From: an uncultured Clostridia bacterium
GTDB taxonomy: Bacteria > Bacillota > Clostridia > Oscillospirales > Ruminococcaceae
Length of the DNA: 39,781 nt
Reading direction: 5' to 3'
Assembly: GCA_947629785.1 (NCBI GenBank)
Contig: CANRFB010000022.1
Location: 1-39,781 of the forward strand
Position 1 is the first letter of the stretch, and each line of letters opens with the position of its first letter. The position numbers were made by a program, and so were the translations under genes. Below the pieces are notes generated by a model that saw only the letters and a program-made list of their open reading frames with translations, did not search any database and had not been told where the DNA came from. Positions 141-38,500 of this stretch are shown here, one piece after another.

Positions 141-157
141 ATTCCCCATTGGGGAAT
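141..157. repeat. Palindromic repeat, intergenic copy 1
   Basis: The core TTCCCCATTGGGGAA, flanked by A and T, has 7-bp arms around one central base. It belongs to the family found at nine further sites in the window, but this copy lies in the AT-rich left flank outside the ICE-like region. Its central base is the reverse orientation of most other copies. Confidence 0.85.
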
Positions 158-166
158 ATAATAAAA

Positions 167-199
167 TTAAGCGCGGATATTTTAAAAATCCGCGCTTAA
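167..199 (-). terminator. Strong hairpin, probable bidirectional terminator
   Basis: A 12-bp perfect stem (TTAAGCGCGGAT at 167-178 pairing with 188-199) surrounds a 9-base AT loop. Minus-strand reading ends in a T-rich tract, so it can terminate the leftward transcript from the secreted-protein gene; plus-strand reading is followed by GGTTTTT. The rest of 1-333 holds the palindrome, the promoter-like repeat and no gene I can support. Confidence 0.65.
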
Positions 200-333
200 A
201 ATGGTTTTTGTAGTTTTAAAAGTAACAGCATATCATAACCAAGTTACAAAGCAACATGTTTGATATTATCATTTTGCATTTCATAACTGTTATATTATGC
301 CATTAACGTAAGTAGAGGCAGTATACAATATTT

Positions 334-735
334 TTATTTTTTCGGACAAGTACCCGGTTTCTTGTCGGAAACGTATTCGCTGTTTCCGTTTCTATTGACA
401 TATGCAGAAAAATACAATGTATATGTTTCTCCTTTTGTCAACCCCGAAACGGATTTTGTAACTACAAGCTTTGAGTTGCTTGATTTTAAGTCTGTCCACT
501 CACCTACTACTGTTCCATAACTGTCTTTCAATGTAAGATGACCGTCTGTAATGCTGTCAGTATTACTTGCTCCTGTTAAATTGACAGTGCAGTATGCTGT
601 TGTACCTGAAAACGTAAGAATAATATCCAATGTATCTGTATCAGAATATCTGGGTTCAGCTGCCGTGACAATTGAAGCTGTCCCAATCATTACGGCAAGT
701 GACAAAAGAACTGAAATTAAGCGTTTAATTTTCAT
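334..735 (-). CDS. Small secreted protein of unknown function
   Basis: A 133-residue protein with a classic signal peptide: basic start (MKIKRL), hydrophobic core to about residue 23, and a likely cleavage after TAA at about residue 26. The mature part is rich in Thr, Ser and Tyr and in alternating hydrophobic positions, and contains GETYTLYFSAYVN, which suggests a small beta-sandwich domain; I do not recognise the family. GGGAGG sits about 9 bases upstream of the ATG. The promoter-like repeat copy B lies upstream, between this gene and the DUF4367-type gene, so it may be a target of the sigma factor encoded at 1488-2039 (inference). Envelope or extracellular location is likely. Confidence 0.75.
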   Translation of the reverse strand: MKIKRLISVLLSLAVMIGTASIVTAAEPRYSDTDTLDIILTFSGTTAYCTVNLTGASNTDSITDGHLTLKDSYGTVVGEWTDLKSSNSKLVVTKSVSGLTKGETYTLYFSAYVNRNGNSEYVSDKKPGTCPKK

Positions 736-769
736 AGTATAAATCCTCCCATAGTCATACTGCCTCTAT

Positions 770-813
770 TATAAAAACGGTTCAGAGAGGAAAAAATACG
801 TCATTATATTTTT
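770..813 (-). promoter_or_regulatory. Promoter-like repeat, copy B, upstream of secreted protein
   Basis: On the minus strand it carries TGACGTA, 13 bases, TGAACCG and TTTTTATAAT, nearly identical to copy A at 14-54. It ends about 35 bases before the ATG at 735. The conservation of two separate boxes with fixed spacing fits an alternative sigma promoter. A TATAAT at 768-773 could also act as a vegetative -10. Confidence 0.5.
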
Positions 814-1504
814 ATTTTTCAATATTTTCAGCGATTTTAACAAATTCTTCTTTAGATATATGTGCTTTTAGACCAAAAGAATATCCGCTATAATACCATA
901 AAAGATTATCATAAAAATCATTATCGTTGCTTCTGTAATAATAATACTCTATACTATCAACAGTAAACGTTTCAAATGAATTATGTTCATTATCATAATT
1001 TCTTAACATACTATCAGCAATGCCATAATTAAATTCTATTATTTCATTTTCATTTTCATAAGTTAGTATAACATATCCAGGGGAATAAATGCCATTTGAT
1101 AATAAATATCCGTCAGGCACATAACCCAATCTAAAACTATCGTCAAAGCTTTCAACTGTTATTTCGTCACCAACATATTCATATTTATCATACTTATCAA
1201 AAACGCTTCTGAATACATTTTTAACTGCCGCAAAAACCTCCGGCTGGGTAAGCAGACAGCCAAATACAAGACCGAAGGCAGCCGCAATGGATACGACAGA
1301 CCTTACGGCAATACGTTTGTATATTTTTATTCTGTCTTTTCTGCCAACAGAATTTGTTATTTTACGCATTTTTCTCTTATATTCCTCTGAAAATTCGTGC
1401 GGCTTATTTAATTCATCATATTTTTTGAGTTCCTCATCAAGGCATTCTTCGAGAGCGTCAGCTAATATAAGGTCAAATATTTTATTCTTAGTTGCAACAT
1501 TCAT
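812..1504 (-). CDS. DUF4367-type membrane protein, probable anti-sigma partner
   Basis: A 230-residue single-pass protein. Residues 1-62 are charged and cytoplasmic (start MNVATKNKIFDLILADALEE). A membrane segment spans about 66-88 (VRSVVSIAAAFGLVFGCLL), and the C-terminal 140 residues, with the pattern DDSFRLGYVPDGYLL, resemble DUF4367 domains. Such proteins sit next to ECF sigma genes in Firmicutes and are thought to control them. The start overlaps the end of the sigma gene by 17 bases, which implies translational coupling and a shared operon. Family assignment is from remembered pattern, not a search. An anti-sigma role is inference. Confidence 0.7.
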   Translation of the reverse strand: MNVATKNKIFDLILADALEECLDEELKKYDELNKPHEFSEEYKRKMRKITNSVGRKDRIKIYKRIAVRSVVSIAAAFGLVFGCLLTQPEVFAAVKNVFRSVFDKYDKYEYVGDEITVESFDDSFRLGYVPDGYLLSNGIYSPGYVILTYENENEIIEFNYGIADSMLRNYDNEHNSFETFTVDSIEYYYYRSNDNDFYDNLLWYYSGYSFGLKAHISKEEFVKIAENIEK

Positions 1505-2039: not shown

Positions 2040-2075
2040 TATATTCACTTCCTCATAATGATATGTATTTAAAAC

Positions 2076-2104
2076 ATTATACAACATTATAATAAAAAAT
2101 ACAA
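2076..2104 (-). promoter_or_regulatory. SigA-type promoter for the sigma-factor operon
   Basis: On the minus strand, -35 TTGTAT (2099-2104), a 17-base spacer and -10 TATAAT (2076-2081). It lies 37 bases upstream of the chosen ATG at 2039, which also supports that start over the longer frame. Confidence 0.65.
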
Positions 2105-2402
2105 TGCTTTTCCAAAAATTTCTTGACAAGTGTTCAAAATTTTACGGTAACGAAATTATAAATCCTTTAATAATTCTCAGATTTGTGATAAAGAATTTTC
2201 CTATAAGATAAAAACAAAAATATACAATAAAAAGTCACCTCAATCCATTTATAAAATACAAAATACTTTGTAAACAATTTTATTATAACACTACTGTTTA
2301 ATAAAGTCAACACGTATAGATAATAAAAAATATCACTAACAGATAATAGTAAATTTATCCTATAGCTTTAAAAAATATTATAGAATTATAATATACTATA
2401 AT
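2105..2402. other. AT-rich intergenic region without a gene
   Basis: About 300 very AT-rich bases separate the leftward sigma operon from the rightward XRE gene. I see no supported gene here. TATAAT-like boxes just before 2403 probably include the XRE promoter, but I cannot choose a -35. This is a plausible zone for the change from chromosome to mobile element; no attachment repeat could be identified. Confidence 0.4.
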
Positions 2403-6067: not shown

Positions 6068-8632
6068 ATGGCAAGTAATTTTGGAGAGCAGAAAAAGAAA
6101 AGCGGGTATGAATTTCTGTTTTTTGCCGCCGCTGCTGTTCTTGTAATAATTATTGCAACGTGGTTCGGATATATCCTTGAAGATACGGCGACGAAAAAGG
6201 GCATACAATGGCTTACCGCCTTAAACTCAATATCCGACTACGCAAACCCCGCCGCCTTTATAAAGGCTTTCGGAGCGGTTTTAACGGGAACTGGAATTGC
6301 CAAAAAAGGAATGGTGTTCGGATTTTTGGGCGGTATGCTCATTATATTGTGGAAATTTGCGGGCAGCGGAAAGCGTTACCACCGTAAAGGCGAGGAACAC
6401 GGCTCGGCACGTTGGGGCAACAGGCAGGAAAAAGATATAATTGCCGATACCAATGATTTTTACAACAATGTCATAGCCGCTTCTGACGTATTTTTAGTGC
6501 TTGACCGCAAAAAACGCGATACCAACTCTATGACCGAAAAAGAGAAAAAGGCAAAGGCACGTTCCGACAGGAAAAAGGAAAAGAACGAAAAGAAGCGCAT
6601 TGACAAGCTGACAGAGAAAGCTCAGGAAAATTCCCCAATGGGGAACTCCGCAGAGGCAGAGATATTTGAAACGGATAAAAATACCCTTGTAAGATACAAC
6701 GGCAGCGATACGGAAGTGACCGTACCCGATAATATAAACAAGATCGGCGAGTTTGCATTTGCATTGTCGGAGGTAAAATCCGTAACAATGTTGTCGGTTA
6801 CAGACGTTGAGAAAGGCGCATTTTTCGGTTGTGAAAAACTGGAGCATATAGAAATGGAGAAAGCCGAAAACATAGGCACTTCGGCGTTTGAAAGGTGCTA
6901 TGCTCTCTCCGATATTTATGTGGGAGATAAATTCAAGAAAGCCGATACAACGTCATTCAGGCAATGCTTAAATGCCGTTGTACACTCACCCACAGGAGGT
7001 TACGCAGAACAGTACGCCAATCAGAACGATATGACATTTGAAATAAGCGGCGGCTGTACGGATAACGAAGTCATATCTATACGCAAAATAGCGGAAATGC
7101 GAAAGGCAGCCGCCAAGATAAAGCCTATGCTTAATCTTAATATGATTATTCTCGGCGGTTCGGGTACTGGCAAATCCCGATTTTACGTTAAACCTAATAT
7201 TATGCAGTGCAACACGTCATTTGTTGTGACAGATCCGTCGGGAGAACTTTTGCAGTCCTGCGGGAAAATGCTGGAGCGCAAGGGATATAAGATAAAGGTG
7301 TTCAATATAAACGATATGAAGCACTCGTCAAATTACAATCCCTTTCACTACCTCAAAGACAATGACGGAAACATCAACAGCAACAATGTTATAAAAATGA
7401 TAAACACCTTTATGCTTAACACAAAAGAGGAGGGCGCGGGAGGCGGCGACCAGTTTTGGACGGACGCTACAAGACTGCTGTTATCATCGCTTTGTTTCCT
7501 GCTTGTGGAAACCGCAAGCGAGGAGGAGCAAAATTTTGCGGGTGTTCTTGACCTTATCCACAAGGCGAAAGTCATTGAGGGCAAAGAGGAGGAAAAATCT
7601 GACCTTGACTTGATGTTTGATAAGCGAAAAGAGGCAGAGCCTAATGCTCTGTCGGTGCAGTATTATGAGGAATTTAAACAAGCGGCGGGAAAAACAATGC
7701 AGTCTATCCTTATTTCCACCACCACCAAACTCCAATGCTTTAAGCTGGAGGACGTTCGCAATCTCACCTTTGCCGACAATATACACCTTGAAACTATGGG
7801 AGACGAATTGACGGCGTTATTTATCATAATACCGTCCACCGACACCACATATAACTTTTTGGCGGCAATGATGTACACGCAGTTATTTGACGCATTATAC
7901 AACAGAGCAATAACCTTTTATCACGGCAGACTTAAATATCACGTCAGATGTCTGCTTGACGAGTTTGCAAACTGCGGAAAAATTCCCGAATTTGACAAGG
8001 TACTGGCAACGTGCCGTAAGTTTGAAATTTCGGCGGTTATAATCTTACAAAATCTCTCGCAATTAAAGCGGCTCTACGAGAAATCGTGGGAGGAACTTCC
8101 CGGCAACTGTGATACAATGATTTATCTCGGCGGTAAAGACCAGTTTACTAACGAGTATCTGTCAAAAGAGCTTGGCAAGGAAACTATAGACCAGCAGAGT
8201 ATAAATCAGACTAAAGGCAAGCAAGGCAGCTCGTCATACAATAACGCCATTTTAGGCAGGGAGCTTGCCACCATTGACGAGTTATCCACAATGGATAACA
8301 ACGACTGTATTGTAATGGTGAGAGGTCTGCACCCTTTTATGACGGCAAAGTTTGATATAATCAATCACCCCCGATATAATATGCTTGACGAGGCAAACAA
8401 GGCTAAGAATACATATTATCTGGAGGACAACATAAAGACAATGCCCGAAACGGAATATGTTGATTTTTCACGTCTTTACGATAACGGATCGGCAGACCCC
8501 GACAATACTATTGAAATAGGGTATGTTACAAGCGATAACGAAATAATTAAATCAGCCGCCGACCTTATGTCAGATATTCCGCAGGATATACGGAATATAT
8601 TTTCAGATATTGAGGGCGTATATGCGGCGTAG
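6068..8632 (+). CDS. virD4: VirD4/TraG coupling protein with inserted BspA-type LRR domain
   Basis: An 854-residue T4SS coupling ATPase that delivers relaxase-bound DNA to the channel. Membrane segments lie at about 16-36 and 80-97, followed by the usual GEEHGSARWG. Walker A GGSGTGKS is at about 363-370 (followed by RFYVKPNIMQCN) and Walker B CLLDEFANCGKIPEF at about 631. Residues about 150-340 are extra: a basic stretch, the palindrome peptide NSPMGNS (188-194), then a BspA-like LRR_5 domain (about 205-328) with IGEFAF, GAFFGCEKLEHIEM, TSAFERCYALSDIYV and the cap SPTGGYAEQYANQNDMTFE. In the relatives I know, this interval is a short linker. ATPase residues look intact, so it is probably functional. 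Confidence 0.93.
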   Translation: MASNFGEQKKKSGYEFLFFAAAAVLVIIIATWFGYILEDTATKKGIQWLTALNSISDYANPAAFIKAFGAVLTGTGIAKKGMVFGFLGGMLIILWKFAGSGKRYHRKGEEHGSARWGNRQEKDIIADTNDFYNNVIAASDVFLVLDRKKRDTNSMTEKEKKAKARSDRKKEKNEKKRIDKLTEKAQENSPMGNSAEAEIFETDKNTLVRYNGSDTEVTVPDNINKIGEFAFALSEVKSVTMLSVTDVEKGAFFGCEKLEHIEMEKAENIGTSAFERCYALSDIYVGDKFKKADTTSFRQCLNAVVHSPTGGYAEQYANQNDMTFEISGGCTDNEVISIRKIAEMRKAAAKIKPMLNLNMIILGGSGTGKSRFYVKPNIMQCNTSFVVTDPSGELLQSCGKMLERKGYKIKVFNINDMKHSSNYNPFHYLKDNDGNINSNNVIKMINTFMLNTKEEGAGGGDQFWTDATRLLLSSLCFLLVETASEEEQNFAGVLDLIHKAKVIEGKEEEKSDLDLMFDKRKEAEPNALSVQYYEEFKQAAGKTMQSILISTTTKLQCFKLEDVRNLTFADNIHLETMGDELTALFIIIPSTDTTYNFLAAMMYTQLFDALYNRAITFYHGRLKYHVRCLLDEFANCGKIPEFDKVLATCRKFEISAVIILQNLSQLKRLYEKSWEELPGNCDTMIYLGGKDQFTNEYLSKELGKETIDQQSINQTKGKQGSSSYNNAILGRELATIDELSTMDNNDCIVMVRGLHPFMTAKFDIINHPRYNMLDEANKAKNTYYLEDNIKTMPETEYVDFSRLYDNGSADPDNTIEIGYVTSDNEIIKSAADLMSDIPQDIRNIFSDIEGVYAA
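6631..6645. repeat. Palindromic repeat, copy 2 (in the coupling protein)
   Basis: TTCCCCAATGGGGAA in frame within virD4, read as NSPMGNS at residues 188-194, between a Lys-rich helix and the LRR domain. No frameshift results. Confidence 0.9.
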
Positions 8633-8648: not shown

Positions 8649-8831
8649 TTGCTTGACGCAGAAGAAATCGAAATAATAAACAGAAATCTTAAAAATGGCT
8701 TTGACGTTGAAATACAGCACAGAAAAAACGGAATTGCAATTTTAAGAGAAAAGAAAGAAGTTTGTAAAAAGAGCAATTCCCCAATGGGGAACGGGAGGGA
8801 TAAAACGTGTTTGGAAACGCAGAAGAAATAA
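8649..8831 (+). CDS. Small hypothetical protein ending in the palindrome peptide
   Basis: About 60 residues if it starts at TTG 8649, which follows AGGAAAGGA at a spacing of about 10; an alternative ATG at 8622 lies inside the end of virD4. The core (LDAEEIEIINRNLKNGFDVEIQHR...) resembles the next protein in style, with an acidic helix followed by beta strands. The in-frame palindrome then gives NSPMGN (43-48), and a short tail runs past the next gene's start, overlapping it by 25 bases. The original C-terminus may have been replaced when the palindrome arrived (inference). Function unknown. Confidence 0.5.
   Translation: MLDAEEIEIINRNLKNGFDVEIQHRKNGIAILREKKEVCKKSNSPMGNGRDKTCLETQKK
8777..8791. 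repeat. Palindromic repeat, copy 3 (small ORF, before next RBS)
   Basis: TTCCCCAATGGGGAA lies in the 3' part of the small ORF and immediately before GGGAGGG, the ribosome binding site of the following gene, so a hairpin here could affect its translation. Confidence 0.9.
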
Positions 8832-11076: not shown

Positions 11077-14007
11077 ATGTCCGAAAATAACACAGTAACA
11101 ACAGAAATAGACGTAGAGGCGGCAATTTCAGAAATAGCCGAAATGGAAGTATCTAAGGCTTTGGAAAGCGTCGCGGAACTGACGGAAACAACCGTACCCG
11201 AAAGTGAGACGCTTGACGATGAAAGCCGCACCGACACGGAAATTACCGAAACAGAAACGGGGGAAACCGTTGTCGCTGATATTTCCGAATATGCGGAGGA
11301 AAATACAGTGACCGTTTCCGAAGAAACCTTTATCGTTCAGGCAGAGGACAACATATCGGCGCTGCCCCCCGAAACAACGGCGGCAATAACCGAAACCGAG
11401 GAAGTGACTTCGGCGGTCGTTACCGAGGAAAGCGTAAGCATTACCAAGTCGGAGCTTACGGTAAATCAAATCTTAATGCCTGTCATTATTGCCGTTCTTG
11501 CATTGACCGCCTTTATTATGAAAAAGTCGGGCGGCAAAAAGAAAAACAGCGGCAGGAAATACGCAAAGGACAGGGACGTGGAGAGGCTTAATGCCGATAA
11601 ACCCGCAAAATCAAAGAAAAAGGAAAAGCGGGATAAATCGGAAAAGGAAAAGCGGAATTTGTCAAAGAAAACTCTTGACACCATTCCTTACAAGAAAATT
11701 TTACCCTACAACATATGGTATCTGGGTAAAAATATGTACTCAAAGGCGTACACCTTTGACGATATTAACTTTAACCTTGCGGACGAGGAACAGCAGTATG
11801 CCTACCTTGACAAGTATATTGAGTTTATGAATATCCTTGACGACACGGTAGACTGTCAGGTTTGTTTGTGGAACAGTATGGTGAACGTGGACGAATACCG
11901 TCACCGTATTCTGATGAAGCAGACAGCGGACGAGTTTTTCAATCTCCGCTTTGAGTACAATAACCGTGTGCTGGAGGAAAATATCAAGAAAGGTCAGAAC
12001 GCTATCCAAAAGCATATGTACGTTACTCTTACCATAAAGGCAGCGGACGAGGAAACCGCAAGGAGAAAATTCAAGTCCCTTGATATTGCCGCCATTAATT
12101 CCTTTAACCGCATAGGCAATACAAACCTCCGAGAGCTTACCTCGCAGGAGCGTGTGGAAATGCTCAAAGACTTTTATATCGGAGCAAACGAAAGTCAGGT
12201 ACCCGAACTTACCGAGGAAAATTTCAAACGCGGCGAGGATAAACTCTACTGCTCCCCCGATTACTTTGATTTTAAAAAGGACTATTTTATGTTCAATGAT
12301 ACCTACGCAAAGGTCGTGTACATAAGAGATTATCCCGCAACGGCAACAAGCGAGATTTTTACCGATCTGCTGAAAACAGGTATAGAGATAATGATAACCA
12401 CCAATATCGAAACCTACGACAGCGCGGCGGCGCGAAAGCTGGTACAGCGGCAGATAACCGCAATTGATACCGATATGGCAAAGCGTGAAGTTGCAGCGGC
12501 GCAGCACGGTAATTTCTCAACGCAAATGCCGCAGAGAATAAAAAATCAGCGGGACAGTATGGTTGCGGTTTACGACAAGATAACTATGCAGGATCAGAAG
12601 CTGTTTTTAACCAATATTCAGATTTTGATTAAAGCAAAGTCCTATGAGGAACTGATGAACAATGCGGAGATCGTCGAAAGCACCTTGAAGCGTTCGGGCT
12701 GCGTAAAGGGGGAAATGGCGTGGGAGCAGGAGGACGGAATGTGTGACTGTCTGCCTTGCGGTTATCAGCGTAAATTCGGTTGGCTTCGTACAATGCCCTC
12801 GGAGGCTGTAGCAATTTTTATGCCCTTTAACGTAAAGGAAATGCAAATGCCGAACGCCGTGTATTACGGTCTGAACGTTCTGTCCCACAATGTCATAACC
12901 TTTGACCGTATGGCAGGACTTGTAAATCCCGCGGGATTTGTGCTTGCCTGTCCCGGTGCAGGAAAATCTTTTTTTGTAAAGCGGGAGCTTATAGACGTTT
13001 TCCTCCGAAACAAAAACGCTGACATTATCGTAATCGACCCCGAAAGAGAGTATTGGAAACTTGCGGAGGCGTTTAACGGTACTGTTGTCAGATTTGCAAA
13101 CGGTTCAAAGAACTACATCAATCCCTTTGATTTTGACTTCCGTCTGCTCGATGATGACGAGATAGACATTATCGCCGACAAGTGCCAGCTTATAACGTCC
13201 TTTATCTCTTGTATGGACGCCAAGCACCCCCTTAACGCACAGGAAAAATCCTTTGTAGACAGGTGCGTCCGCAAAGCGTACATCAAGTCAAAGGTGCTTG
13301 AAACCCTTGACCCCGCAGATATGCCCACTCTCGGAACATTCCTCGAATGTATGAAAGAGGAAAAGGAAAACGTCAACAAGGAAATGCGTGACAAGCTGAT
13401 AGTTACGGTAGATATGTACGTCAACGGCTCTGCAAAGTATTTTGACAATCAGACAAACGTTGATACGGAAAACCGCTTTATCTCTTATGATATTCGCGAT
13501 CTGAACGGAAACTTAAAAACGCAGTCAATGCTCCTTATCCTTGATTACATTTGGAACAGATTGTCCCGAAACAGAGATTTGGGCAGGGCGACATACATCT
13601 ATTTTGACGAGGCGCACTTGCTTTTCGCTGACGAATATTGCCTTGACTATCTTAAAATGCTTTGGAAACGTGCAAGAAAGTACGGCGGCGTTCTCACGGG
13701 TATTACACAGAATGTTGAGGACTTGTTAAAGGACGAAAAATCCCGCTCTATGCTTTCCAACTCGGAATTTCTTGCGCTTTTAAAGCAAAACTCCACCGAC
13801 GCCGCCAAATTGCAGGATATTCTGCACTTTACCGACAGCGAGATACGGTATGTCAAGGACACTCCCGCAGGACACGGCATTCTGGTACTGGGCGGCAAGG
13901 ATAAAATACCGTTCTTTGACGAATTTCCGAAAGATACCGAATTGTATGAAAAGATGTCAACCAATTTCAGCGAGACTGCAAAAATGCTTGCCGAAGAAAA
14001 TGAATAA
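11077..14007 (+). CDS. virB4: VirB4/TraE-type T4SS ATPase with membrane-anchored N-terminal extension
   Basis: A 976-residue ATPase that powers channel assembly and transfer. The VirB4 body begins near residue 203 (IPYKKILPYNIWYLGKNMY). Walker A CPGAGKSF is at about 625, followed by IDPEREYWKLAEAF, and Walker B YFDEAHLLFADEY is at about 842; GITQNVEDLL follows as in the family. The first 200 residues are unusual: about 125 acidic Glu/Thr/Val-rich residues, one membrane segment at about 130-148 (ILMPVIIAVLALTAFIM), then a very basic linker (KKSGGKKK). By the positive-inside rule the acidic part would be outside the cell. It lies directly after the PrgI-like gene. Confidence 0.93.
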   Translation: MSENNTVTTEIDVEAAISEIAEMEVSKALESVAELTETTVPESETLDDESRTDTEITETETGETVVADISEYAEENTVTVSEETFIVQAEDNISALPPETTAAITETEEVTSAVVTEESVSITKSELTVNQILMPVIIAVLALTAFIMKKSGGKKKNSGRKYAKDRDVERLNADKPAKSKKKEKRDKSEKEKRNLSKKTLDTIPYKKILPYNIWYLGKNMYSKAYTFDDINFNLADEEQQYAYLDKYIEFMNILDDTVDCQVCLWNSMVNVDEYRHRILMKQTADEFFNLRFEYNNRVLEENIKKGQNAIQKHMYVTLTIKAADEETARRKFKSLDIAAINSFNRIGNTNLRELTSQERVEMLKDFYIGANESQVPELTEENFKRGEDKLYCSPDYFDFKKDYFMFNDTYAKVVYIRDYPATATSEIFTDLLKTGIEIMITTNIETYDSAAARKLVQRQITAIDTDMAKREVAAAQHGNFSTQMPQRIKNQRDSMVAVYDKITMQDQKLFLTNIQILIKAKSYEELMNNAEIVESTLKRSGCVKGEMAWEQEDGMCDCLPCGYQRKFGWLRTMPSEAVAIFMPFNVKEMQMPNAVYYGLNVLSHNVITFDRMAGLVNPAGFVLACPGAGKSFFVKRELIDVFLRNKNADIIVIDPEREYWKLAEAFNGTVVRFANGSKNYINPFDFDFRLLDDDEIDIIADKCQLITSFISCMDAKHPLNAQEKSFVDRCVRKAYIKSKVLETLDPADMPTLGTFLECMKEEKENVNKEMRDKLIVTVDMYVNGSAKYFDNQTNVDTENRFISYDIRDLNGNLKTQSMLLILDYIWNRLSRNRDLGRATYIYFDEAHLLFADEYCLDYLKMLWKRARKYGGVLTGITQNVEDLLKDEKSRSMLSNSEFLALLKQNSTDAAKLQDILHFTDSEIRYVKDTPAGHGILVLGGKDKIPFFDEFPKDTELYEKMSTNFSETAKMLAEENE

Positions 14008-14030: not shown

Positions 14031-16511
14031 ATGTCAAGAAAAAAGCACAGAGGAAAGGGCGGCAGTCCTCATTCGGACGGCAGCGGAACGGTCCGCAGAC
14101 AAAAAGCCGCCAAATTTGCCGAAAGAAACCTTAAACCCACCTCGGATAATTCCCCATTGGGGAACTCCGAGAGTGAGGATTTTTTGGAAAATACGCCGCT
14201 TGAAAATTCAGCGGATAAACCGCACGGAAGTAACCGAAAAAGGAAAAAGCAGTATGACGACGAAAATACTGTTGCGGATAATACGGAAAGTCCGCAGGAC
14301 GAAAAGCGGCAGAAAAAAGCGGCGGCAGTACGTCAGGCGGCAGAACGGAGCATTGCGGACAGCAGAAAAGCCGATATTGAGGAAACCGAGGAAAAGCCGA
14401 AAGAGGACGTTATTTCTGAAAGCTCCAAGGAAGAAGCGCCGCCGCAGGACAACTCATTGTCAGAGATTGACGATACTCAAACGGAAGAAAAATCCGTTGA
14501 CCCGCAGACGGCAAAGCGGCTGAAAAAGGCGGCATACATCAAGCAGATGAATGAAGCCGAAATTGCAGAGGAAACAAGTCTTGAGGACGGGGAGGAAAAT
14601 ACCGAGGAAACCGCGGAGGCGCAGGAGCAGACGGAGGAAGTATCTGAAAATGAAGAATTTCCCGAAGCCGAAACATCGGAAGATGATACGGAGGACGGCG
14701 AGATCGACGCGGACGAATTAAAAGAGGCGTATATAAAGGAATTTGCTGCCGACCAATATCAGGACCGCAAAAATAATAAAAGCAATATACCCGCGGGAAT
14801 GATACTTGAAGCCGCAAAGGACACGGCGGATTTTGTTTCTGCCGTTCAGAGCGGAGACGCTACTAAGGTTGCCGCACTTCCCATAAAGAAAATTATCGAA
14901 AAAAGGTATGGGGAAAACAAGACGTTACGAAAGGCTAAAATTGTTTCCTCCGCAGTAAAAAACTCCGACAGCGTAGGCGGGGCGGCGGCAGGGATCGGAA
15001 CGGCAATTGCCGCCGATAAAGTCAAGCAATACGCACATGGACTTGTTTTCGGACAAAACGGTAAAAAGCGCAGACAGCGGGAAGTCAAAAAGTACAGGCA
15101 TATCAAAAGAGAAAAGGCTGTTAATGCGGAAAATACCGAAAAAACCGCCAAAGTCCAGCGGTACAAGGTAAAGTCGGTTGAAAGGAACGCCGCCGCAAAG
15201 AAAAACTTACAGCGCAAATTTTATTTGAAGCAAAACAAGGACGTTCTGACCTATGTTCCGAAAGCGGACGTAGGGCGCAGTATCAAGAAAAAAATATTTG
15301 CAAAGCTGTTAGCCTTTGCCGCACCTATGTTAATTCCGATATTTATTATCCTTATCGTTGTAATGCTCATATCCTCGCTTTTCTCGTGGTTAAATCCCTT
15401 TAAATTTACCTTTGCGGGAAGTAACGATGAAACCTCCGCGGAAAAAAGCGATGAAATACTGGACACTTACACTCTGATGATACAAAACTATATGGATATT
15501 GCACAGGCATACTACTACCTCGAATACGGCGACTGGTACGGCGGTACATATGATTATCCAAGCGCAGAACAGAGCCTAAGTTTTTCAGCTTTTTATGCTT
15601 CTAAGTGCGAATACATCATTGCTAATATTCGGGAACAGTTTGCGGACGCGCTTGCCAATGCTCCCAATGAACAGGCAAGAGCAAATATAAGCCGTGCAAT
15701 GGGCGAAGCAATATCCAACGCTTTAAGTCAGGCACAGGCGGGAGCAGCCGAGGAATATCAGTCACTCATTGACGGTCTGAACGACTGTATGACCGCGGAG
15801 GAAAAACGTCAACACTACGAAGTTGTAAACAACGGCGGCGCAAACGGTACTGCCGACGCAGACGAATTTAACGGCAAGCCGATAGAGGGTACAAACTTCT
15901 TTGACAATGTTGAAATTGAAAGCGATCTGTCCGCGGAAGAGCTTATGGCTATGACGTCCTTGTATAAAACGTTACTGCTGATACAAAGCGACGGCAAGAC
16001 CGAGGACGGCACAGATTATGAATACAACATTACTCCCGAAGATATAATGACGTTATTTGAAGATACGGAGTATATCCCGATAACCGCCGAAATTACACAC
16101 AACAATGCGTGTGCGGGGCAGAATTGCCGCCGCCGACTTGTGGGCGACTACGAAAACGGCTACTCGTGGGAATACTACTGCCTTGCGGATCACGATAATT
16201 TAAACGGCAATATTGACCCTTGTATCAGCAGGGACGAGCTTCTGGAGAAAATTATGGAGCTGACCGAGGCGGAAGAAAACGGCTTTGATAAAGACCAATG
16301 CGAGGAAATGATTGACGAATACATTAAAAACATCAATGACGAGCTTGATATTGACGAGGACGATTACAGACAATTCGGCTCTGCCGATAACGAACGCGCA
16401 AAGGATTTTTACGAAACACTTATAGACCCGACGGCGGAGGGTATACCCAACAACATATGGGACGTGCCGCTGCCAGTTGTTGGAGAAAGCGAGGAAAACG
16501 AAAATGAATAA
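14031..16511 (+). CDS. Large membrane-anchored ICE protein (CD1107/CD1108-like position), no hydrolase domain seen
   Basis: An 826-residue protein. Residues 1-230 are highly charged and low complexity, rich in Lys/Arg then Glu/Asp, and carry the palindrome peptide NSPLGNS at 40-46. About 245-410 is basic and helical (ILEAAKDTADFVSAVQSGDATK). One strong membrane segment lies at about 425-452 (LLAFAAPMLIPIFIILIVVM and following). The outer 375 residues contain Cys pairs (NNACAGQNCRRRL and CLADHDNLNGNIDPC) and acidic helices. In related elements this locus encodes a protein ending in a peptidoglycan hydrolase (NlpC/P60, CHAP or lysozyme-like); I see none here before the stop. Probable role in the outer T4SS. 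Confidence 0.7.
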   Translation: MSRKKHRGKGGSPHSDGSGTVRRQKAAKFAERNLKPTSDNSPLGNSESEDFLENTPLENSADKPHGSNRKRKKQYDDENTVADNTESPQDEKRQKKAAAVRQAAERSIADSRKADIEETEEKPKEDVISESSKEEAPPQDNSLSEIDDTQTEEKSVDPQTAKRLKKAAYIKQMNEAEIAEETSLEDGEENTEETAEAQEQTEEVSENEEFPEAETSEDDTEDGEIDADELKEAYIKEFAADQYQDRKNNKSNIPAGMILEAAKDTADFVSAVQSGDATKVAALPIKKIIEKRYGENKTLRKAKIVSSAVKNSDSVGGAAAGIGTAIAADKVKQYAHGLVFGQNGKKRRQREVKKYRHIKREKAVNAENTEKTAKVQRYKVKSVERNAAAKKNLQRKFYLKQNKDVLTYVPKADVGRSIKKKIFAKLLAFAAPMLIPIFIILIVVMLISSLFSWLNPFKFTFAGSNDETSAEKSDEILDTYTLMIQNYMDIAQAYYYLEYGDWYGGTYDYPSAEQSLSFSAFYASKCEYIIANIREQFADALANAPNEQARANISRAMGEAISNALSQAQAGAAEEYQSLIDGLNDCMTAEEKRQHYEVVNNGGANGTADADEFNGKPIEGTNFFDNVEIESDLSAEELMAMTSLYKTLLLIQSDGKTEDGTDYEYNITPEDIMTLFEDTEYIPITAEITHNNACAGQNCRRRLVGDYENGYSWEYYCLADHDNLNGNIDPCISRDELLEKIMELTEAEENGFDKDQCEEMIDEYIKNINDELDIDEDDYRQFGSADNERAKDFYETLIDPTAEGIPNNIWDVPLPVVGESEENENE
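14150..14164. repeat. Palindromic repeat, copy 4 (in the large membrane protein)
   Basis: TTCCCCATTGGGGAA, reversed in its central base, in frame as NSPLGNS in the disordered charged N-terminal region. Confidence 0.9.
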
Positions 16512-21668: not shown

Positions 21669-21683
21669 TTCCCCAATGGGGAA
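21669..21683. repeat. Palindromic repeat, intergenic copy 5
   Basis: TTCCCCAATGGGGAA, starting 2 bases after the stop of the preceding gene. Confidence 0.9.
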
Positions 21684-21702
21684 AAGTTTTCCAATGGAAA
21701 AC
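21684..21702. repeat. Variant palindrome adjacent to copy 5
   Basis: AGTTTTCCAATGGAAAACT has the same CCAATGG centre but different, longer arms (9 bp around one base). Placed directly after copy 5, it makes two tandem hairpins just before the GGDEF gene's ribosome binding site. Confidence 0.85.
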
Positions 21703-21724
21703 TAAAGGAAAGGACTTGAAAAAT

Positions 21725-24521: not shown

Positions 24522-25802
24522 ATGTTATATTCCGATGAACAAATACAACGTGCCAACGATCAGAGCATTACCGATTTTTTTCGCAGTATGGGATATTCTG
24601 CCGATTATGAAAGCGGAGAAATGCACATACACGGTTTTGGCGGCTTAAAGGTTGACGAGGAAAGAAAGCTGTTTCACATACATTCCCGTCAGGTGGGCGG
24701 TTACGGACTTGTGTACTGTTTGCAAACCGCACTCGGTATGAGTTACCCCGAAGCAATAAAAACGGCATTAAACGGCGAAATGCCTAACTCCAACACCAAA
24801 GATTTTAGTTATACAAAACGGCAATTCCCCAATGGGGAATTGCCCCCCAAGCGGGAAAAACCCGTGAAAGAATTTATTATGCCGCAAAGAGATAAAAACA
24901 ACAGGCGTATTTTTTCCTATCTCACACAGGAAAGGCGCATATCTCCGCAAGTGGTAAACGAGCTTATAAACACAGGCTTGCTTTTTCAGGACGTAAAAGG
25001 AAACGCGATTTTTCTTGATATAAAAGACGGAGTACCCTGCGGAGCGGAATTTCACGGCACGGGCAGAAAGAAATACACCATAGGCAAAACAAAATATGCA
25101 GAGATCGAAAATCGAACGGTTATCAAAACAGAACCGTACATAGCCTATCAGGTCGGTGAGATACTGAAAGACGAAAAGGATATGAAGTTTGTCGGCTACA
25201 TTTACGAAAACGAGGCTAACATAGCCGCAAATGAACAGGACGCAAAGCTGATAACCGACATCATAGAAGCAGTCCGAAATTCGGACATAGACAAGGAAAT
25301 GCTTGAAAGCACCGTAAAACAAAAACTAAAGTCCTTTAACGGCGTAGCAGAGGGAACAGCGGGCAATTTCTTTGAATATGTCAAATTTCCAAATCCGCAG
25401 GGAGCATATGTGTTTGAAAGCGCAATAGATATGATGAGTTTTATGCACCTGCACCCCAACGCTCAAAACTGCGAGTTTGTATCAATGGGCGGTTTAAAGC
25501 CAAGCGTAGTCGAAACGCTTTTACAGCGAGGTTTAAAGGTTGCCCTTTGTGTTGACAACGATGAAAAAGGAAAATATTTTTGTGAAAGCTTCGGCGACAG
25601 GTGTACGGTTTTTACCGAATGTCACAAGCACGGCGTAAAGGACTTTAACGAGCTTTTACAGAAACTAAACCCTAAAAAAAACTTTACCGATACGGTAAAA
25701 AGAATATCGGAGTGGTCTTACCGAGTGCAGGAAAAAGCGGCAGCGGCAAAGGAGGCTTTGTATGAAAACAATAAACCCCTTAAAACGCAATATGTCCGCT
25801 GA
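24522..25802 (+). CDS. DUF3991/Toprim-domain protein (primase-like)
   Basis: A 426-residue protein. The N-terminal region (SITDFFRSMGYSADYESGEMHIHGFGGLKV) is the DUF3991-associated start seen in ICE proteins. The in-frame palindrome gives FPNGEL at 102-107. A DUF3991-like part follows (YLTQERRISPQVVNELINTGLLFQD). The Toprim domain has its Glu in YVFESAIDMMSF (about 303) and the acidic motif in LCVDNDEKGKYF (about 345). About 75 residues between FHGTGRKK and FNGVAEGT appear to be an extra insert compared with the family. Possible role: priming or processing transferred single strands. RBS is GGGAGG upstream. Confidence 0.85.
   Translation: MLYSDEQIQRANDQSITDFFRSMGYSADYESGEMHIHGFGGLKVDEERKLFHIHSRQVGGYGLVYCLQTALGMSYPEAIKTALNGEMPNSNTKDFSYTKRQFPNGELPPKREKPVKEFIMPQRDKNNRRIFSYLTQERRISPQVVNELINTGLLFQDVKGNAIFLDIKDGVPCGAEFHGTGRKKYTIGKTKYAEIENRTVIKTEPYIAYQVGEILKDEKDMKFVGYIYENEANIAANEQDAKLITDIIEAVRNSDIDKEMLESTVKQKLKSFNGVAEGTAGNFFEYVKFPNPQGAYVFESAIDMMSFMHLHPNAQNCEFVSMGGLKPSVVETLLQRGLKVALCVDNDEKGKYFCESFGDRCTVFTECHKHGVKDFNELLQKLNPKKNFTDTVKRISEWSYRVQEKAAAAKEALYENNKPLKTQYVR
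24825..24839. repeat. Palindromic repeat, copy 6 (in the Toprim protein)
   Basis: TTCCCCAATGGGGAA; the pairing extends through GCAA and TTGC on either side to 23 bases in total. It is read in the alternative frame as FPNGEL. Confidence 0.92.
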
Positions 25803-29591: not shown

Positions 29592-32500
29592 ATGACCGAA
29601 TATATCAATAAGGATTTTTACAAGCAGATACCCGCAAATGAAAGACACTTTATAAAGCTGTCGCAGGAGGCGGCATATGCGGCTGTCAAGGAGCTTGAAG
29701 CTGCAAATATACCCCATTCGGCTACCATAAGCGAATATAGAAGTGTTGTGACCGTAAACAGAGTTGACAGCGTTAATGCGGAAAGAATTGCTGAAAAAGC
29801 CGCAAAGGAATTTCCGAATGTAAAAAAGGTTTTCGGAAATACGGAATATAAGGCTATCCGTGATAGGAAATATATTGACACCGACGCAGATACGGCAAGA
29901 AAAATTGCCGCTCTGCTGTCGGGCAATACCAATAATCGCTTTTCGGGCATTATAAGAGGGGAAAAGGCAACAATAACAGTCAGCGGTGAAAAAAACGCCG
30001 CTGCTGTTCGTGCAATGGTTGAGAACTTAAAGAATATGGATCTGTTGGAGGCTCTCAGGGAGCGCGGCTATGAACGTACAGCAGACACAAACGGCTTTGT
30101 AAATATACGAAATATGCAGACAGGCGAGGTATGCGGTTTTAACGGTATGGCTGCCGTTCGTGATATGTTCGACAATCCCGAAAACGAGTTTTTCTATCCG
30201 CTGTCCCACAGAATTGCCTACCGTGAACACCCCACCAACGGCGATTACTATTACTACATTCAGAAATACAATTCTGCCGACAAATCCTCCGCTAAAGTAT
30301 ATAGAGACGAAAATAACAAACCTGCATTATTTAAAAGCGTTGACGAGGTGTTGTCCTATACGGCAGACAACGGGATAGAAATAACGAATATCGACGAGGA
30401 AATCGCAAACTGGAGAGAGGTTGACAGGGAGCGCGAGGACAACTCAATCATCGAGGAAAACAGAAAGCTCATTGAAAACTTTCCTATAAGCAATGGAGCT
30501 TACATAGACCTTATCAGCTACAATCCAAATACTGATACATTCTCGTGGACATACTATAACCCCGACGGCGATAATGGCAGCGGCGCATTTGTAGATAAAA
30601 CCATAACCAAAGACGATATTTTTGCCGCATACTCTGTAAGAGTTGACGCAGAAAATGAAGAACAGGGACGTAATGCTTTTATAGCATACTTAAACGAAAA
30701 ATGCAAGGAAGATGTAATCGAAATATATTCGGGATATTTTGCCGAGTACGCTGGAGATTATATCAACTATGCTTCAAAAAATTATGCTTATTTTTTCGGC
30801 ATAGCGGAAAACAGTACAGCAACATCATCTATGGATAACTTTATTACCCACCTTGAATTAAATTGTGAGGAAGTAATAAAGGACAAGGAGAGTAAGGAAC
30901 AGCCGCAGGAAATAACGGAAAGAAGTTTCAGAGTTGAGTTTGAGGGCTACTCTGGAGCGTGGAATGTTATAGAAAACGCAGAGATAGACGGCAAAGAACT
31001 GTTTATGCTTGAAAACGATTATTACGGCGACAGCGTGGCATATATCGTTGCCGATAAAGACGGTAACATTGTTGATAACAATGTTTGGGGAGATTTTGAG
31101 GAATACGAAAACACGCTTGTCAAGCGCAGACTTATTGAAGCCGCTGAAAACAGCAAGAACGGGACAACTATGCCCGTTTTAAAAGAATTTGCGGAGGATA
31201 TGAAAAAATACGGCTTTGAGACTTACGAAGCAGACGGTATATTTACTGCAAACAGAGAAGATGTTGCGGGATTTATCCGTATGGATACTATCGGCGAAAT
31301 ACTCTACGATATAAGCGAAAAGTACCGTTTTGAACCCAATGAAGTCGGCAATAATCATTTGCTTGACCTTAACCGTTTTTATGACAGTTACGAATGGAAC
31401 AATTTTTCAACTCTGAAAAATGTAATTGATAATACCGTCATTGCCCTGCGTTCGGGCAATTATGACCCTTTCGATAATTATATCGAACAGGTCAAATCGG
31501 TATGCGAAAATTCAGACGGTAATATGCTGTATGAGGAAAGCAAAATAAAAGAAGCGGAGGAACATTTGGCAAAAGTCAAGGCTGTTTTCGGGGAGAGAAA
31601 CAAATCGGTACTTGGAGCGGAAGAAAAATTCCCCTATGGGGAATTGTCGGACGAGGGCGAAACCGCCGAAATTCCGCAGGAAAGCAATATACATTTCGGC
31701 TATTTCGGCAACGGTGTTTTATGCTATGATACATCAAGACTTGACAAAGAAATAGACGATTATCTTAGTGTAGCACACATATCAAACGAGGGCAATATCC
31801 GCTATTATGTTGATGATTTAACGGAAAGCGACAAACAGCATATCGAAAATCACGCAAAAGGTGTAAAAGACAGATTTACGGTTTACTGGAACGGTCTGTC
31901 CATGCAAACGAGATACGGTATGCTTTATGACAGACTGCTTGAAACAGGAACGTCCGAGCAAATAAAGACCTTTAACGCTGATAAAGGCTCTATGGGAAAG
32001 ACTTCTGATGAAAGAATGGCGGCTTATATAAAGAAATACGAACACAGTCTTATTTTTAAAGACGAGGACTTCCCTTTTGAGAACGCTCCAGCGGTGGATT
32101 TCCAAACAGAAATAAACAATCTTGTATTGGAAAAAAACAGAGAGGCTGTAGAAATGATTGAAGTCGGAAGTGAGATCAGTCTTAATTATATATCCTATGT
32201 TATAAAGTCCATAGACGGCGATCATATGATGAGTATGGGCAAAAAAGGTGACGATAATGATACAAAGCAGTACGTGGGAAACTGGAAAGAACAGCTTTTA
32301 AGCAAGGCGGGTAACGATCCGTTATTTGTATACAGTCCCAAACTTGCTAAAGAACTTGATTTCATAGAAAGTGTAAATGCTGTAGCGGAAAACATAAGCG
32401 CTCCTGCCGATAATGGCGAAATTATATCCGATGATACCTACAGAACAGACAATAATGTAAATTTCCTTACGGATAATATACCTGATTTGGATAATGAAAC

Positions 32501-35500
32501 CGCCGAGAAACTTGTTAATGCTTTTGCCGCTTCTACTTTGAGCGGCTGGGATAAAGGAGATAATCAGGCGAAAATAAACAGGATAAAAAAATCGCTCTAT
32601 GACATTTTATCCGATGAAGATAAAACCGAAAAGGCATATGCGCTTATTTCCAAAAACGTATATAATCACAATTCAGATACTCTTGATTTTCACTTTGGCG
32701 GCAATAACGGCAGTGAGTGGTTTACTGAAAATGAACTGCTTCATAATTTTGTAAAAAGCAACCGCAATATCAGTTTTGCTCTTGCTAACGCCTTAATAGG
32801 CTATCTGGACGAAAAACAGCACGCTGAACGAGAGGTTGACGAGCTTAAAGCTGGTTGGTATGATAAGACCGATTACAAAATTAAAGCAAATATTGACGGA
32901 GAAATATTTGACTATGAGGGCAGATTTGATATAGGCGACGGCAAAGGAACAGGCGGAGGCACGCTTGTAGATCATATCAGACAAAGAAACGAATATATTA
33001 TAAAGTCTGATAAATACCCTTATAACACAAAAGAGGCAAAAGACGAAGCAAGATTAATTCTTGATGTTTTTGTGCCGTTTCTGGAAAAATACTCTGCAAT
33101 GACACCCGAAGAAGAAAAAATCCTTGAAGATTTTAAGGAAAATAATCCTATAAGAACCTCCGCTCACAAAGGCGAATTGAGTAATGATGATTTTGAAATT
33201 TTTCAAGTAAAGAGCGGAGATGAATACCTTTATAAAAGATTTATGGATTTATCCGCACTCGGACAATCACCAAGTATGTCTGATTATGACCGTGTTTATA
33301 AGGGAACACTTTCGGAAATTGACGTTAATGCAGAAAACAAAGACGATATTCTTAATAATATCTATACAAAATTCAACATCAATCACCCCGAAGATTTTAA
33401 GGGACACAGCCTTTCCGTAAGCGATATTGTTGTCCTGCACAAAGACGGAGCTGCCACAGCACATTATGTTGACGATGTTGGTTTTAAGGACGTTCCCGAA
33501 TTTTTACAGGGAAAAGCAAGGGAACAGCATACACTTTCCGAGGGCGATATTGTGACGTTTGCAGACCGCCCTAACGTTTGGAGAGTTAGGACAATAAATG
33601 ACACGCAGATTGATTTTGAAAATACTAACCAAAACTCAATGGATAAAATGTTCTCACACATTGATTTTGGACAGCACAGAGATAATTTGCAGGAAAAGCT
33701 GAAATATACTGTTGTTCCGCAGGATATTTCGGAGCGTGAAAAAATCAGTGAAGGTAAGTCGCTTAATTCCCCAATGGGGAACTCTGATAAGGAAGCGAAT
33801 GAAACTGTAAAGAAACAAAAGCCTAAAAAAATTTCCAACACTATCCCTCACAGAAATTTTAATAAGCTAAAAAAACTTTTTCCCGAACTTATGGAGAAAA
33901 ATCATACATACGAGCATTACGAAAGCGGCTCATATGAACCTCTGTCTGCTGAATGGATAGGCGGCGATATGATCTCGCTTATGCAGACATATGTACAAAA
34001 CGGCGATTTAATGCGCGATCCCGAAGTTGTTATTAAGGTCGATTTTGAAAATGAAACTGTAAACGCTTTTTCTTTTGAAAATTCGGGTTTAGGCATATAT
34101 CGGGAATATTCGGACGGATCAAAGGGACAAAAGGACACTAACAGCTTTGTAGTTGGTTGGCTTAACAATATTGAGTTGCAAAACTTTAAACTCACAAGGT
34201 ATGACGATATTAACGAAAACAGAGTTGATTTAACTCAAAATTCCGAACAATCCGTTCTTTCGGAAGAAAAAGCGTATATTTACTCCGAAATTAAATTTGA
34301 AACGGGCGAGGTATACCTTGTACCCGACAAAATAAGCGACGATAATATTTCCGAAACCGACGCCTACAAGGAAGTTCTTGAACTTTATGCCGACAAGGAT
34401 AATATTGAAAACCTTGACGATATGATACGTGTAAATATACAGAATTATCGTTACGGCAGCGGCGAGGAGAGTATTCCGAACGATACAGAAATGACGTTTA
34501 TACGCGAAAACTCCATTGACATTATGAATAAGTCGGAAGAAATAGGCAATACAGAATTTTTCGCTCACTTTTGGAAAAACGTTGATGATGTTCTGAACGA
34601 TCTTGAAAGCAAGGCGGCAAAACAGCATAAAACGTCTCCAAAGTTTGGGGACGGTTACGAAGAACAGACATATATTTTCCCGACTGATTTTTCCTCCGAT
34701 TATCCCGATTACAACGGAGCGGTTAGGGAAATAATGGTCGGAAAAGAATGGATTGAAACGGAAGAAGCCGTAAAAATAATGAACGTGCAGGGCAATACAG
34801 ATACAGCACAGATAGAGGCTTTACGCGTTCATACCGTTAGCTTTGACGGTATTGAAAGAAGCGAGGTGCTGTCACCCGAAGCGTTTCATATCATACTTGA
34901 CCGTACAATGAAGAATAAGGACAAAATGAAAGAGGCGGCAGAGCTTTACGAAAAAAACGACGGAAATATTATGCCCGTATATACAAAAACTCCGGCAGAG
35001 GCAACAGAAGCGGGAGAAAGGGAGAAATATTTTGCCGATAAACGGGAAAATGAAAGGTGCGCCGCGTCTATACGTTATTCTATTAGCTGCAACAATGACG
35101 GTATGCACTTTAACAGCGACAAGGCGATTTCCGAGCTGTTGGGTACATATTCGATTGACAGAATTGCATTGATAATTGCCGCAAAAGTAAGTAATTCGGG
35201 AGAATGGGACAAGCGGTTTTCACGCGAAAATGTTGAATGGGCGAAAAATTTGTTAAAAGCCTATCCTGTCGAAAAGGTGGTGACAACAAGCCATTTGGGA
35301 CTTAACAGTCACTCCGTTCTTATAAATTCTGCCGCAGACGAACTTAGAAGTAATTTTGAAATGTTCCGCAGTATGCAGAATGAAAAGGAAACGAAAGTAA
35401 CGGCTGATGTTCACGAGCAGCGGAATTTTAATGAAAATATTAAAAATCTCAGTCAACTTAAAAGGACCTTGACTGTCGGTACTGAATTTGTCATTACCGA

Positions 35501-38500
35501 TCACGTCAGAAGTGAATGTGTCGGCGAGCGCAGACGTGTTACAGAGGCGAATACAGCTTGCTTTTATTCGCAGAAAATCAATTCAGACGGCACAGCAGAG
35601 GGCAAGCCGCTGTATATGGAATGGGGAAAGGCGGCAAACTGGAATTTTGAAAACGGTGTATGTACATCTTCTCTTGACAATAAAGAAAAAGTGATGTCAT
35701 TTAAGGTTTTTGAGGAGGATATGTTAAATGTTGAAAATGCTGTACGTTCAGATATAGATGTTACTGATGATAATAATTCCCCAATGGGGAACTCGGAGGA
35801 AGAACGTCATATCTCCGCAGCGGATATAACTATCGGCGATAAGTTTTTATATAAAGGTGAGGAAGTAACTGTATTATCTCTTAAAGGATTTTATCCCGAT
35901 GATGTGGGGATCGGAAAAGTTGAAAGGACAGGACTTATAGATTTTGTGATCACGAGAAATGTGGACAGATTTACTCTTGCAAAAGACGGAGTATATTTAG
36001 GAAACGCCGAAAAAGCCAAGTCAGAGGAAAAATTAGAGTATACGGACGAACCTATAACTCAAAAGGATAATTCCAAGCAATATGACGGTCAGAAAGTCAG
36101 AGCGGCTTTTGATAAGCTGATAGCTAATCACAGCTTTTCAGCCGAAGCAGAAAAATTCCTTAACCGAACTGCCGATCAGCTTATTATTAACAAATATGAC
36201 AGCATAGACCCTAAGATGTTCACCTCTGTTCTGTTCAGGAATAATTACGGCACTATCGGAAGAATAAACGAAAAACTTTTTGACGGAGAGCTTATGCCGA
36301 TCATTGACGAAGTGAACGGCTATATTAACGGGAAAGATGTTGAGTACGTTCAAAAAGAAAATACGGCAGCCGAAAAAAATTCCCCAATGGGGAATTACGC
36401 TCCGCAAATAAATGACGTTATTGAAAATGACGACGGAGTTTACAAGGTTGCAAAAATAAGTGAAAATTTTGTGACGCTCCTTGAAGCGGATACGCTTCTG
36501 CCCGATGAAAAGACCATATCAATGACGGATTTTTATAAATCCAACTTTACATTGCTTGAAAGGGACGAAACCATATCCGAAGCTGTAATCGCGGAAAAAC
36601 CTGTTGAAATTGTGGAAAAGTCCGTTAGTAAGGCGGAAAACTATGCTATTACAGATGAAAATTTGGGCGATGTAGGCGGCGCAAAAAGCAGATATGCGGC
36701 TAATATCGAGGCGATAAAAACCTTGAAAAGCATAGAAAAGGACGGTCGCAACGCAACACCCGCCGAACAGGACATACTTGCAAAATACACAGGCTGGGGA
36801 GCTATCCCTCAGGCGTTTGACAGCACAAATACGAAGTGGAGCAGCGAATACGCAGAACTGAAAGAACTGCTTACTTCCGAAGAATACGAAGCCGCAAGGC
36901 ACAGTACAATGAACGCGCATTACACCTCTCCTACAGTTATCTCCGCAATGTATGACGTACTTAATAACTTAGGCTTTGAAAAAGGCAATATCTTAGAGCC
37001 TGCAATGGGTACGGGAAACTTTTTCGGTATGCTGCCCGAACTTTATAAGGACAGCAATTTGTACGGCGTGGAGCTTGACAGTATAACAGGAAGAATAGCA
37101 CAGCAGTTATACCCAAATGCCGACATTCAGATAAAGGGATATGAAAAGACTTCATTTCCCGATAATTCCTTTGATGTGGCAATCGGTAATGTTCCGTTCG
37201 GGGATTATAAAATCTCGGACAAACGATACAATGACAATAATTTCAACATTCACGATTATTTCTTTGCCAAAACTCTTGACAAGGTACACGCAGGAGGCAT
37301 TATAGCCTTTGTTACCTCTAAGGGTACAATGGATAAGGAAAATGACGAGATACGCAGATATATAGCGCAGAGAGCGGAACTTTTGGGAGCTGTCCGTCTG
37401 CCGAATAATGCTTTTAAGGCGACAGCGGGAACAGAGGTTACTTCCGATATTCTTGTCCTGCAAAAGCGGGAACGTCCTATCGAGATAAATCCCGACAGCA
37501 TAGAATGGCTGAAAAAATCCGAAACAGCAGACGGTCTGTCTGTAAACAATTATTTTGTACAGCACCCCGAAATGGTTTTAGGCAAAATTACAGAGGGCAA
37601 CAAGCTGTACGGAAACAGCACAAAGGATACAAGCTGTACACCGATAGAGGGCGCAGACCTTAAACAACAGCTTGCGGAGGCAATAAAGAACATTAAGGGT
37701 ACATATAGGGCGGCAGATATTGAAATCGAGCCTAAAAATGACGATATTATCCCCGCTCCTGCCAATTCACGGAAATTCAGCTTTTATGAACAGGACGGAA
37801 ATATTTATTACCGTGAAGCCGAAGAAACAATGAAAAAGGTAAATGTATCTAAGGATTTATTTAACCGCGCTGTAGGAATGATAGAACTTCGCGACAGCGT
37901 TCACGAGCTTTTAAACTTGCAGCTTATGAACAGTCAGGGGTATCTTGACAGCGAAGTTGAAGAAAGCAGAAAAAAGCTGAACACACTCTATGACAGCTTT
38001 GTAAAAAAATACGGAAATATTTCAACACCCAAAAATGCAAAAGCGTTTAAGGGGGATAACGGTTATTTTGTTCTCTCCGCACTTGAAAACAAGGACGAAA
38101 ACGGCAAGGTTATAGGAAAAGCCGATATATTTACTAAGAATACAGTCAAGCCGAAAATAATTGCCACTCACGTTGAAACAGCGGAAGAAGCATTGATACT
38201 TTCCGTTTCCGAAAAAGGAAAAGTCGATTTTGACTTTATGACCGAGCTTTGCGGAATGGATAAGGACAGGCTTATTTCCGAGCTTGACGGACAGATATAC
38301 AAGCTGCCGCAGGAAACGGAAAAATATGTCACAGCGGACGAATATTTGTCCGGCAATATCAGAAAGAAAATGCTTGATATTGCAAATTCCGACAACCCGA
38401 ATGAATACGAAAAAAATTATGCTGCCTTGCAAGCGGCTATGCCGCCGAGGGTAGAGGCAAAGGATATTGCCGTAAAACTCGGCTCTCATTGGGTAGACCC

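Follow-up and report, generated by a model that had tools for sequence, protein, structure and literature searches.

The window analysed here is an entire contig (C22; 39,781 nucleotides) of an uncultured Clostridia bacterium of the Ruminococcaceae. Because it encodes a VirD4-like coupling protein and a VirB4-like conjugation ATPase, we assign it to a conjugative element. Ten copies of the palindrome TTCCCC-NNN-GGGGAA are scattered along it (Table 1); nine are TTCCCCAATGGGGAA in one or the other orientation, and that at 31629 has the centre TAT. By comparison with related integrative and conjugative elements (ICEs), we propose that the palindromes are predicted binding sites for a ParB protein encoded by the same ICE.

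All ten places listed in the initial annotation of this sequence are genuine copies or the TAT variant, the first being located at 142-156 rather than at 141. At least eight had been taken to be coding; by lists of open reading frames (ORFs), seven lie in genes and three are non-coding. Five of the coding copies, not six as had been thought, are read as NSPMGN or NSPLGN, and the other two as FPNGEL or FPYGEL, as originally reported.

Table 1. Palindrome copies and conjugation genes of the window
Feature	Position	Strand	Context
Copy	142..156	-	Non-coding; sole frame found over copy is 31 aa
VirD4-like coupling protein	6068..8632	+	NCBIfam CD1115 family; holds one copy
Copy	6631..6645	+	In virD4, NSPMGN, linker before leucine-rich repeat (LRR) insert; same place, exact in G017 and on two G010 contigs, with one mismatch in G422 and G035
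Copy	8777..8791	+	Intergenic, between virD4 and 84-aa ORF starting at 8807; same place in G010
VirB4-like conjugation ATPase	11077..14007	+	NCBIfam CD1110 family
Copy	14150..14164	-	In gene 14031-16511, NSPLGN; same place in G010 and G017
Copy	21669..21683	+	Intergenic, 2 bp past stop codon; G017 orthologue of downstream gene also has copy just upstream
Copy	24825..24839	+	In gene 24522-25802, FPNGEL; orthologue copy in G422, not in G017
Copy	31629..31643	+	Centre TAT, FPYGEL, large gene from ~29514; AAT form at same place in G010
Copy	33767..33781	+	Large gene, NSPMGN; same place in G010
Copy	35777..35791	+	Large gene, NSPMGN; same place in G010 and G422
Copy	36380..36394	+	Large gene, NSPMGN; same place in G010 and G422

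The palindrome far exceeds its random expectation. With up to three mismatches allowed on both strands the window gave 20 matches, compared with a mean of 0.98 and a maximum of 4 in 100 dinucleotide shuffles. A search of the host genome (3.05 Mb, all 162 contigs) returned 11 exact copies, nine in the window and two on a second contig, C77, with none on any other contig; the backwards control sequence gave no match in the same genome. The ICE itself holds 11 exact copies and one with a single mismatch; no further match differs at two or three bases. This gap between exact and random sequence fits selection for the exact site; recent spread alone would also give such a gap, a point on which the silent sites considered below bear.

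Across seven element sets (one of which, G010, comprises parts of more than one ICE) we counted 77 copies of TTCCCC-NNN-GGGGAA, 10-18 in each of five sets and six in each of the other two. The centre was A-N-T in 70 of the 77, and the site is therefore better written TTCCCCA-N-TGGGGAA, a 7+1+7 palindrome. In a de novo count of palindromes over 29 sets, either this hexamer pair or its inward-read form TCCCCA-N1-TGGGGA ranked first in each of the seven close sets. The flanks had been described as alike, and they are similar, with AA before and TT after, but they are looser than the core (72-76% each, symmetrised over the 70 exact copies).

Palindromes at the par locus

Contig C77 carries genes for a tyrosine integrase, ParB and ParA. 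The ParB (336 aa; L206:6592-7602) has a ParB_N (CTPase) domain (Pfam ParB_N, 2.8e-16; TIGR00180, 62.0 bits, cut-off 58.45), and its profile matches are to Noc, ParB, Spo0J and KorB chains. The adjacent ParA (L206:7604-8374) matches AAA_31 at 9.1e-56. Of the two C77 palindromes, one follows the parB stop codon with no base between, and the second is in the leader of the par operon, 24 bp past a promoter-like TTGACT-17-TATACT that we read by eye. The par locus hence possesses palindromic cis sites of the kind expected of a ParABS system, and the 11 exact copies and one TAT copy spread over C22 and C77 resemble the many dispersed sites of a KorB-type system on a single conjugative element.

This arrangement recurs in relatives. 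In G000, G010, G017 and G422 a copy directly abuts the end of the parB stop codon; in G035 and G016 one lies 243 and 237 bp downstream of parB, respectively. The leader copy is found in like context in G000 and G010. Since parB, virD4 and the palindromes share one contig in G422, G016 and G035, we infer that C77 and C22 are parts of one ICE.

Separately, the spacer of the par promoter-like sequence is occupied by another palindrome, CACTATNNATAGTG (L206:9367; L200:6247 and 6314), and TACTGTNNACAGTA takes its place in G020 and G016. It may be the operator of another regulator.

Co-occurrence, co-divergence and conservation

Within a sample of 396 genomes of the family, 22 contained the motif: four with at least seven copies (11, 13, 11 and 7), two with three and 16 with one. 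A ParB search at 1e-20 found matches in 87 of the 396, and the four best by E-value were the four genomes with at least seven copies (hypergeometric p ~1e-9, ignoring kinship). When genomes were picked by the motif instead, five of the 20 among the matches listed had at least ten copies, and four of these five had a ParB match of 2.6e-46 or better; by their coordinates these four are G017, G010, G020 and G035, and hence the same genomes as already sampled. The fifth, G454, had no ParB match. In G450, whose ParB is 52% identical, there are four copies, two of them flanking parB on both sides on one contig.

The conjugation genes do not predict the palindrome. Five contigs from genomes with other ParBs (G169 C61, C69 and C125; G353 C19; G001 C37; 48 kb) encode VirD4 proteins 72-89% identical over the C-terminal part and hold neither a copy nor any perfect CA-N-TG palindrome, yet the motif-rich G016 (13 copies) and G035 (11 copies) have more distant VirD4 proteins (69% and 68%). 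The comparison supports a motif that follows ParB and not the conjugation genes. As virD4 and parB lie on separate contigs in G169 and G353, the argument rests on whole-genome copy counts, which are one for G169 and none for G353 or G001.

More distant ParBs are associated with other palindromes, which lie beside or within parB in several relatives. TTCGCCA-N-TGGCGAA occurs four times in G286 and twice in G312. In G362, whose ParB is 46% identical, four imperfect copies are built around TCCCCACTGGGG and flanked by ACTTC/ACCTC and GAAGT. Several relatives carry a 15-bp palindrome inside parB itself, as is known for parS in Bacillus subtilis. Such palindromes number 15, in 15 of 36 genes (some of them near-copies of each other), against 2.85 palindromes expected from synonymous codon shuffling and a maximum of seven genes in 100 shuffles; 13 of the 15 are at codons 148-184. 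Their arms include TGACGCA (full site TGACGCA-N-TGCGTCA), TGCTCCA, TCCCCCA, TCGCCAA, TGGAAGT, TGGCACT and others. Palindromes of the CA-N-TG type numbered 18 against 0.6 expected in a count that took in L256; a run of N in that locus inflates both the total for all palindromes (123) and the expected value, neither of which was used. The short, cut-off reading frames of L281 and L292 were excluded from the parB-internal count and from the tree.

When 38 ParBs were placed on a tree and given palindrome labels by us, the eight TTCCCCA-type proteins formed one clade (support 100/97), next to G312 with its TTCGCCA site. Among outside records, ParB relatives were present in 264 from plasmids and 74 from phages. 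Four such loci, chosen solely for their ParB, were examined: two exact copies occur in MT838405 (ParB 50.6%), and the parB gene of NZ_CP154629 (37.6%) contains TGGCCTA-A-TAGGCCA. Taken together, these sequences suggest that palindrome and ParB have co-diverged in part.

The host also encodes a second ParB (L303, on C53), 39% identical to the first, with three copies of TGTTCC-N3-GGAACA within the 16.8 kb around it.

Within genes, conservation acts on the DNA. Where orthologues share a residue, the third base of four-fold codons was identical in 146 of 172 cases inside palindromes, compared with 5633 of 12066 outside; the pairs pooled here overlap, are each taken in both directions and include some with a partner lacking the site, whereas pairs above 92% identity and pairs within one set are omitted. 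This excess of silent conservation indicates selection on DNA and led us to reject an ancestral peptide motif as the source of the repeats. The peptide can nevertheless outlast the exact site, as in the VirD4 of G422 (L266:11563), where NSPMGN is kept and the DNA is one base off.

In the alignments made, in-gene sites come and go between distant ICEs and lie in variable linkers. The remark of the initial annotation that the Trp-containing frame is unused also extends to relatives: 31 sites in open frames of at least 400 aa, orthologous and hence non-independent sites included, were distributed 25, 6 and 0 over the three frames.

Predicted function and competing explanations

The comparisons show that the palindromes co-occur with this ParB, partly co-diverge with it and are conserved at the DNA level, and we consider it very probable from these sequences that they form a dispersed parS/operator set predicted to bind the ICE's own ParB. 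This supports one of the suggestions made initially, a protein-binding site, with the sites tracking ParB type. By analogy with KorB and IncC ParB, a ParB dimer would bind each copy, load as a CTP clamp and spread. With about a dozen copies over the ICE as loading points, ParB could coat the element and, with ParA, hold or segregate it when excised or replicating. The leader copy would let ParB repress its own operon, and copies near other genes might add KorB-like silencing. Partition appears the likelier main role, with silencing possible. In genes, the surviving placements would be those read as a tolerated linker peptide (NSP[MLV]GN or FPxGEL), and such tolerance, together with avoidance of the Trp frame, would account for the frame bias.

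A bolder version of this proposal is that the element has placed some dozen clamp-loading sites for ParB within its genes, each in frame, to let ParB coat, segregate and silence it as a whole, and that ICE lineages, starting from an ancestral single site within parB, re-coded their site sets in step with ParB specificity. We hold this only tentatively and think it somewhat more likely to be wrong than right.

Several observations weigh against ParB as the binding protein. Family and PDB matches cover the N-terminal part of ParB only, with no match to a helix-turn-helix; alignment A1 has a conserved stretch after the N-domain that is likewise uncovered. Only two of the 11 exact copies in the host are on the parB contig, compared with six of seven in G422 and all copies in G016 and G035. 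The 18 genomes with one or three copies all fall outside the top ParB matches; the backwards control itself occurs once in each of 4 of the 396 genomes; and virD4 and parB are on separate contigs in G169 and G353. G114 and G446, whose ParBs have higher local identity (61% and 58%) over at most half of the protein, have no copy. About a third of the related ParBs have no assigned palindrome; on the tree 12 of 38 are unlabelled, although three of these (L242, L244 and L303) possess palindromes not used as labels, and the two TTCGCCA ParBs (G286 and G312) do not group. Two of the four outside loci, MT836308 and MT836946, lack a palindrome near parB.

Copies also exist without a close ParB, 50 of them in G454 (Cytophagales; L081, L087, L105 and others) and seven in G449. 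In G454 the 15-mer is embedded in one longer repeat in the seven of 50 copies inspected, which makes it a different thing from the ICE sites; in G449 it is likewise inside a longer, different repeat in the four of seven copies inspected. A pattern scan of a genome-contig collection found at least 118 stretches with the motif, and the corresponding scan of viral sequences found 41, in both cases mostly single copies in unrelated groups. In the inspected copies of G453, and in some Clostridia-like genomes (L078, L080), the 15-mer was seen in longer, unrelated-looking repeats.

The strongest competitor, an unlikely one in our estimation, is that the palindrome is the operator of another ICE regulator, Xre-type or linked to a sigma factor, which travels with ParB and acts on transcription only. 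Copies in the par leader and between genes would suit such an operator, and the ICE encodes both an Xre-like protein (identified by eye) and an extracytoplasmic function (ECF) sigma factor. Seven of the ten window copies are, however, inside genes, and the palindrome sequence shifts with ParB clade, several relatives having it within parB or at the stop codon of that gene.

Still less credible is a short mobile palindrome inserting in frame, in the style of the Rickettsia palindromic elements that the initial annotation brought to mind. Those elements do lie in frame inside genes; they are longer, chromosomal and proliferating. The present copies are dispersed, near-identical and in frame, and related ICEs differ in where they carry them. 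In contrast to a spread over the whole genome, however, exact copies are confined to the two ICE contigs and tied to ParB, the silent bases of the sites are kept over deep divergence, and no clean gain of 15-21 bp was seen in the aligned orthologues; the Rickettsia likeness is of no help in explaining the palindrome.

A hairpin in mRNA or single-stranded DNA, controlling translation or priming in conjugation, is equally improbable: a six-pair stem with a 3-nt loop could form and ICEs pass through a single-stranded stage, but every other 6-bp arm is present at most two times in the ICE, and the prevailing A-N-T centre is needed by a 7+1+7 protein site and not by a loop.

Relation to known systems

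Chromosomal ParB/Spo0J and Noc have a related N-terminal domain and palindromic sites, with a consensus other than the one here; those systems are chromosomal, in contrast to the ICE-borne set. Closer parallels come from conjugative plasmids. According to the available text of two reports, KorB of RK2 (RP4), a CTPase clamp of the ParB family, has twelve palindromic operators (OB) of 13 bp and acts in partition and long-range silencing (PMC11790492, PMC10954446), and the clamp slides to promoters up to 1.5 kb off and silences them with KorA (PMC11790492). The IncC ParB has 12-14 palindromic parS copies on most such plasmids, one of them in the par operon promoter region; the site is a 22-bp motif with a 14-bp core, and binding was demonstrated by electrophoretic mobility shift assay (PMC10954446). 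Mimics of this system are found with SGI1.

The ICE shares with RK2 many dispersed palindromic sites and a ParB-family protein on a conjugative element. It differs in that RK2 is a Gram-negative plasmid with another palindrome, whereas here the sites belong to a Clostridia ICE, lie mostly in genes and use two of three frames. With IncC it shares about a dozen copies including one upstream of the par operon, and the available text of PMC10954446 describes no in-frame coding series.

A literature search, with most subscription papers outside its scope, found no description of such a centromere set in gut Clostridia ICEs and no occurrence of the 15-mer (two orientations), NSPMGN or FPNGEL. The kind of system is known; as far as we found, novelty lies in the host group, in sites written in frame within ICE genes and in a ParB series with candidate matched palindromes. 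The recurrent NSPMGN and FPNGEL peptides of conjugation proteins would thereby be explained as a DNA signal and not a protein motif, and gut Clostridia ICEs gain a predicted centromere set. The natural ParB series could be useful for the ParB-DNA recognition code, and it raises a testable question, namely how a set of some twelve scattered sites can change in concert with one protein.

A lone TAT-centred TTCCCCTATGGGGAA is present at L207:9551 (C13:29551), ~90 bp past an open frame whose product is distantly related to VirD4 (33% identical), and the 20-kb C13 locus around it has no ParB match. This copy might be due to chance, or might make use of the ParB of the ICE in the way that SGI1 exploits that of IncC.

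Some further features of the two contigs were noted. The VirD4 of the window contains a BspA-type LRR_5 insert (residues 215-302) soon after the palindrome, which is present in the G010 and G035 orthologues and absent from those of G017, G422 and G169. Directly after the copy at 21669 (window 21669-21705) there is a second palindrome-like stretch, TTTTCCAATGGAAAA; a gene with a GGDEF domain lies downstream of it. On C77, past the integrase, L206:56-2836 encodes a reverse transcriptase that has a group II maturase domain and, fused at the N terminus, an endonuclease/exonuclease/phosphatase domain.

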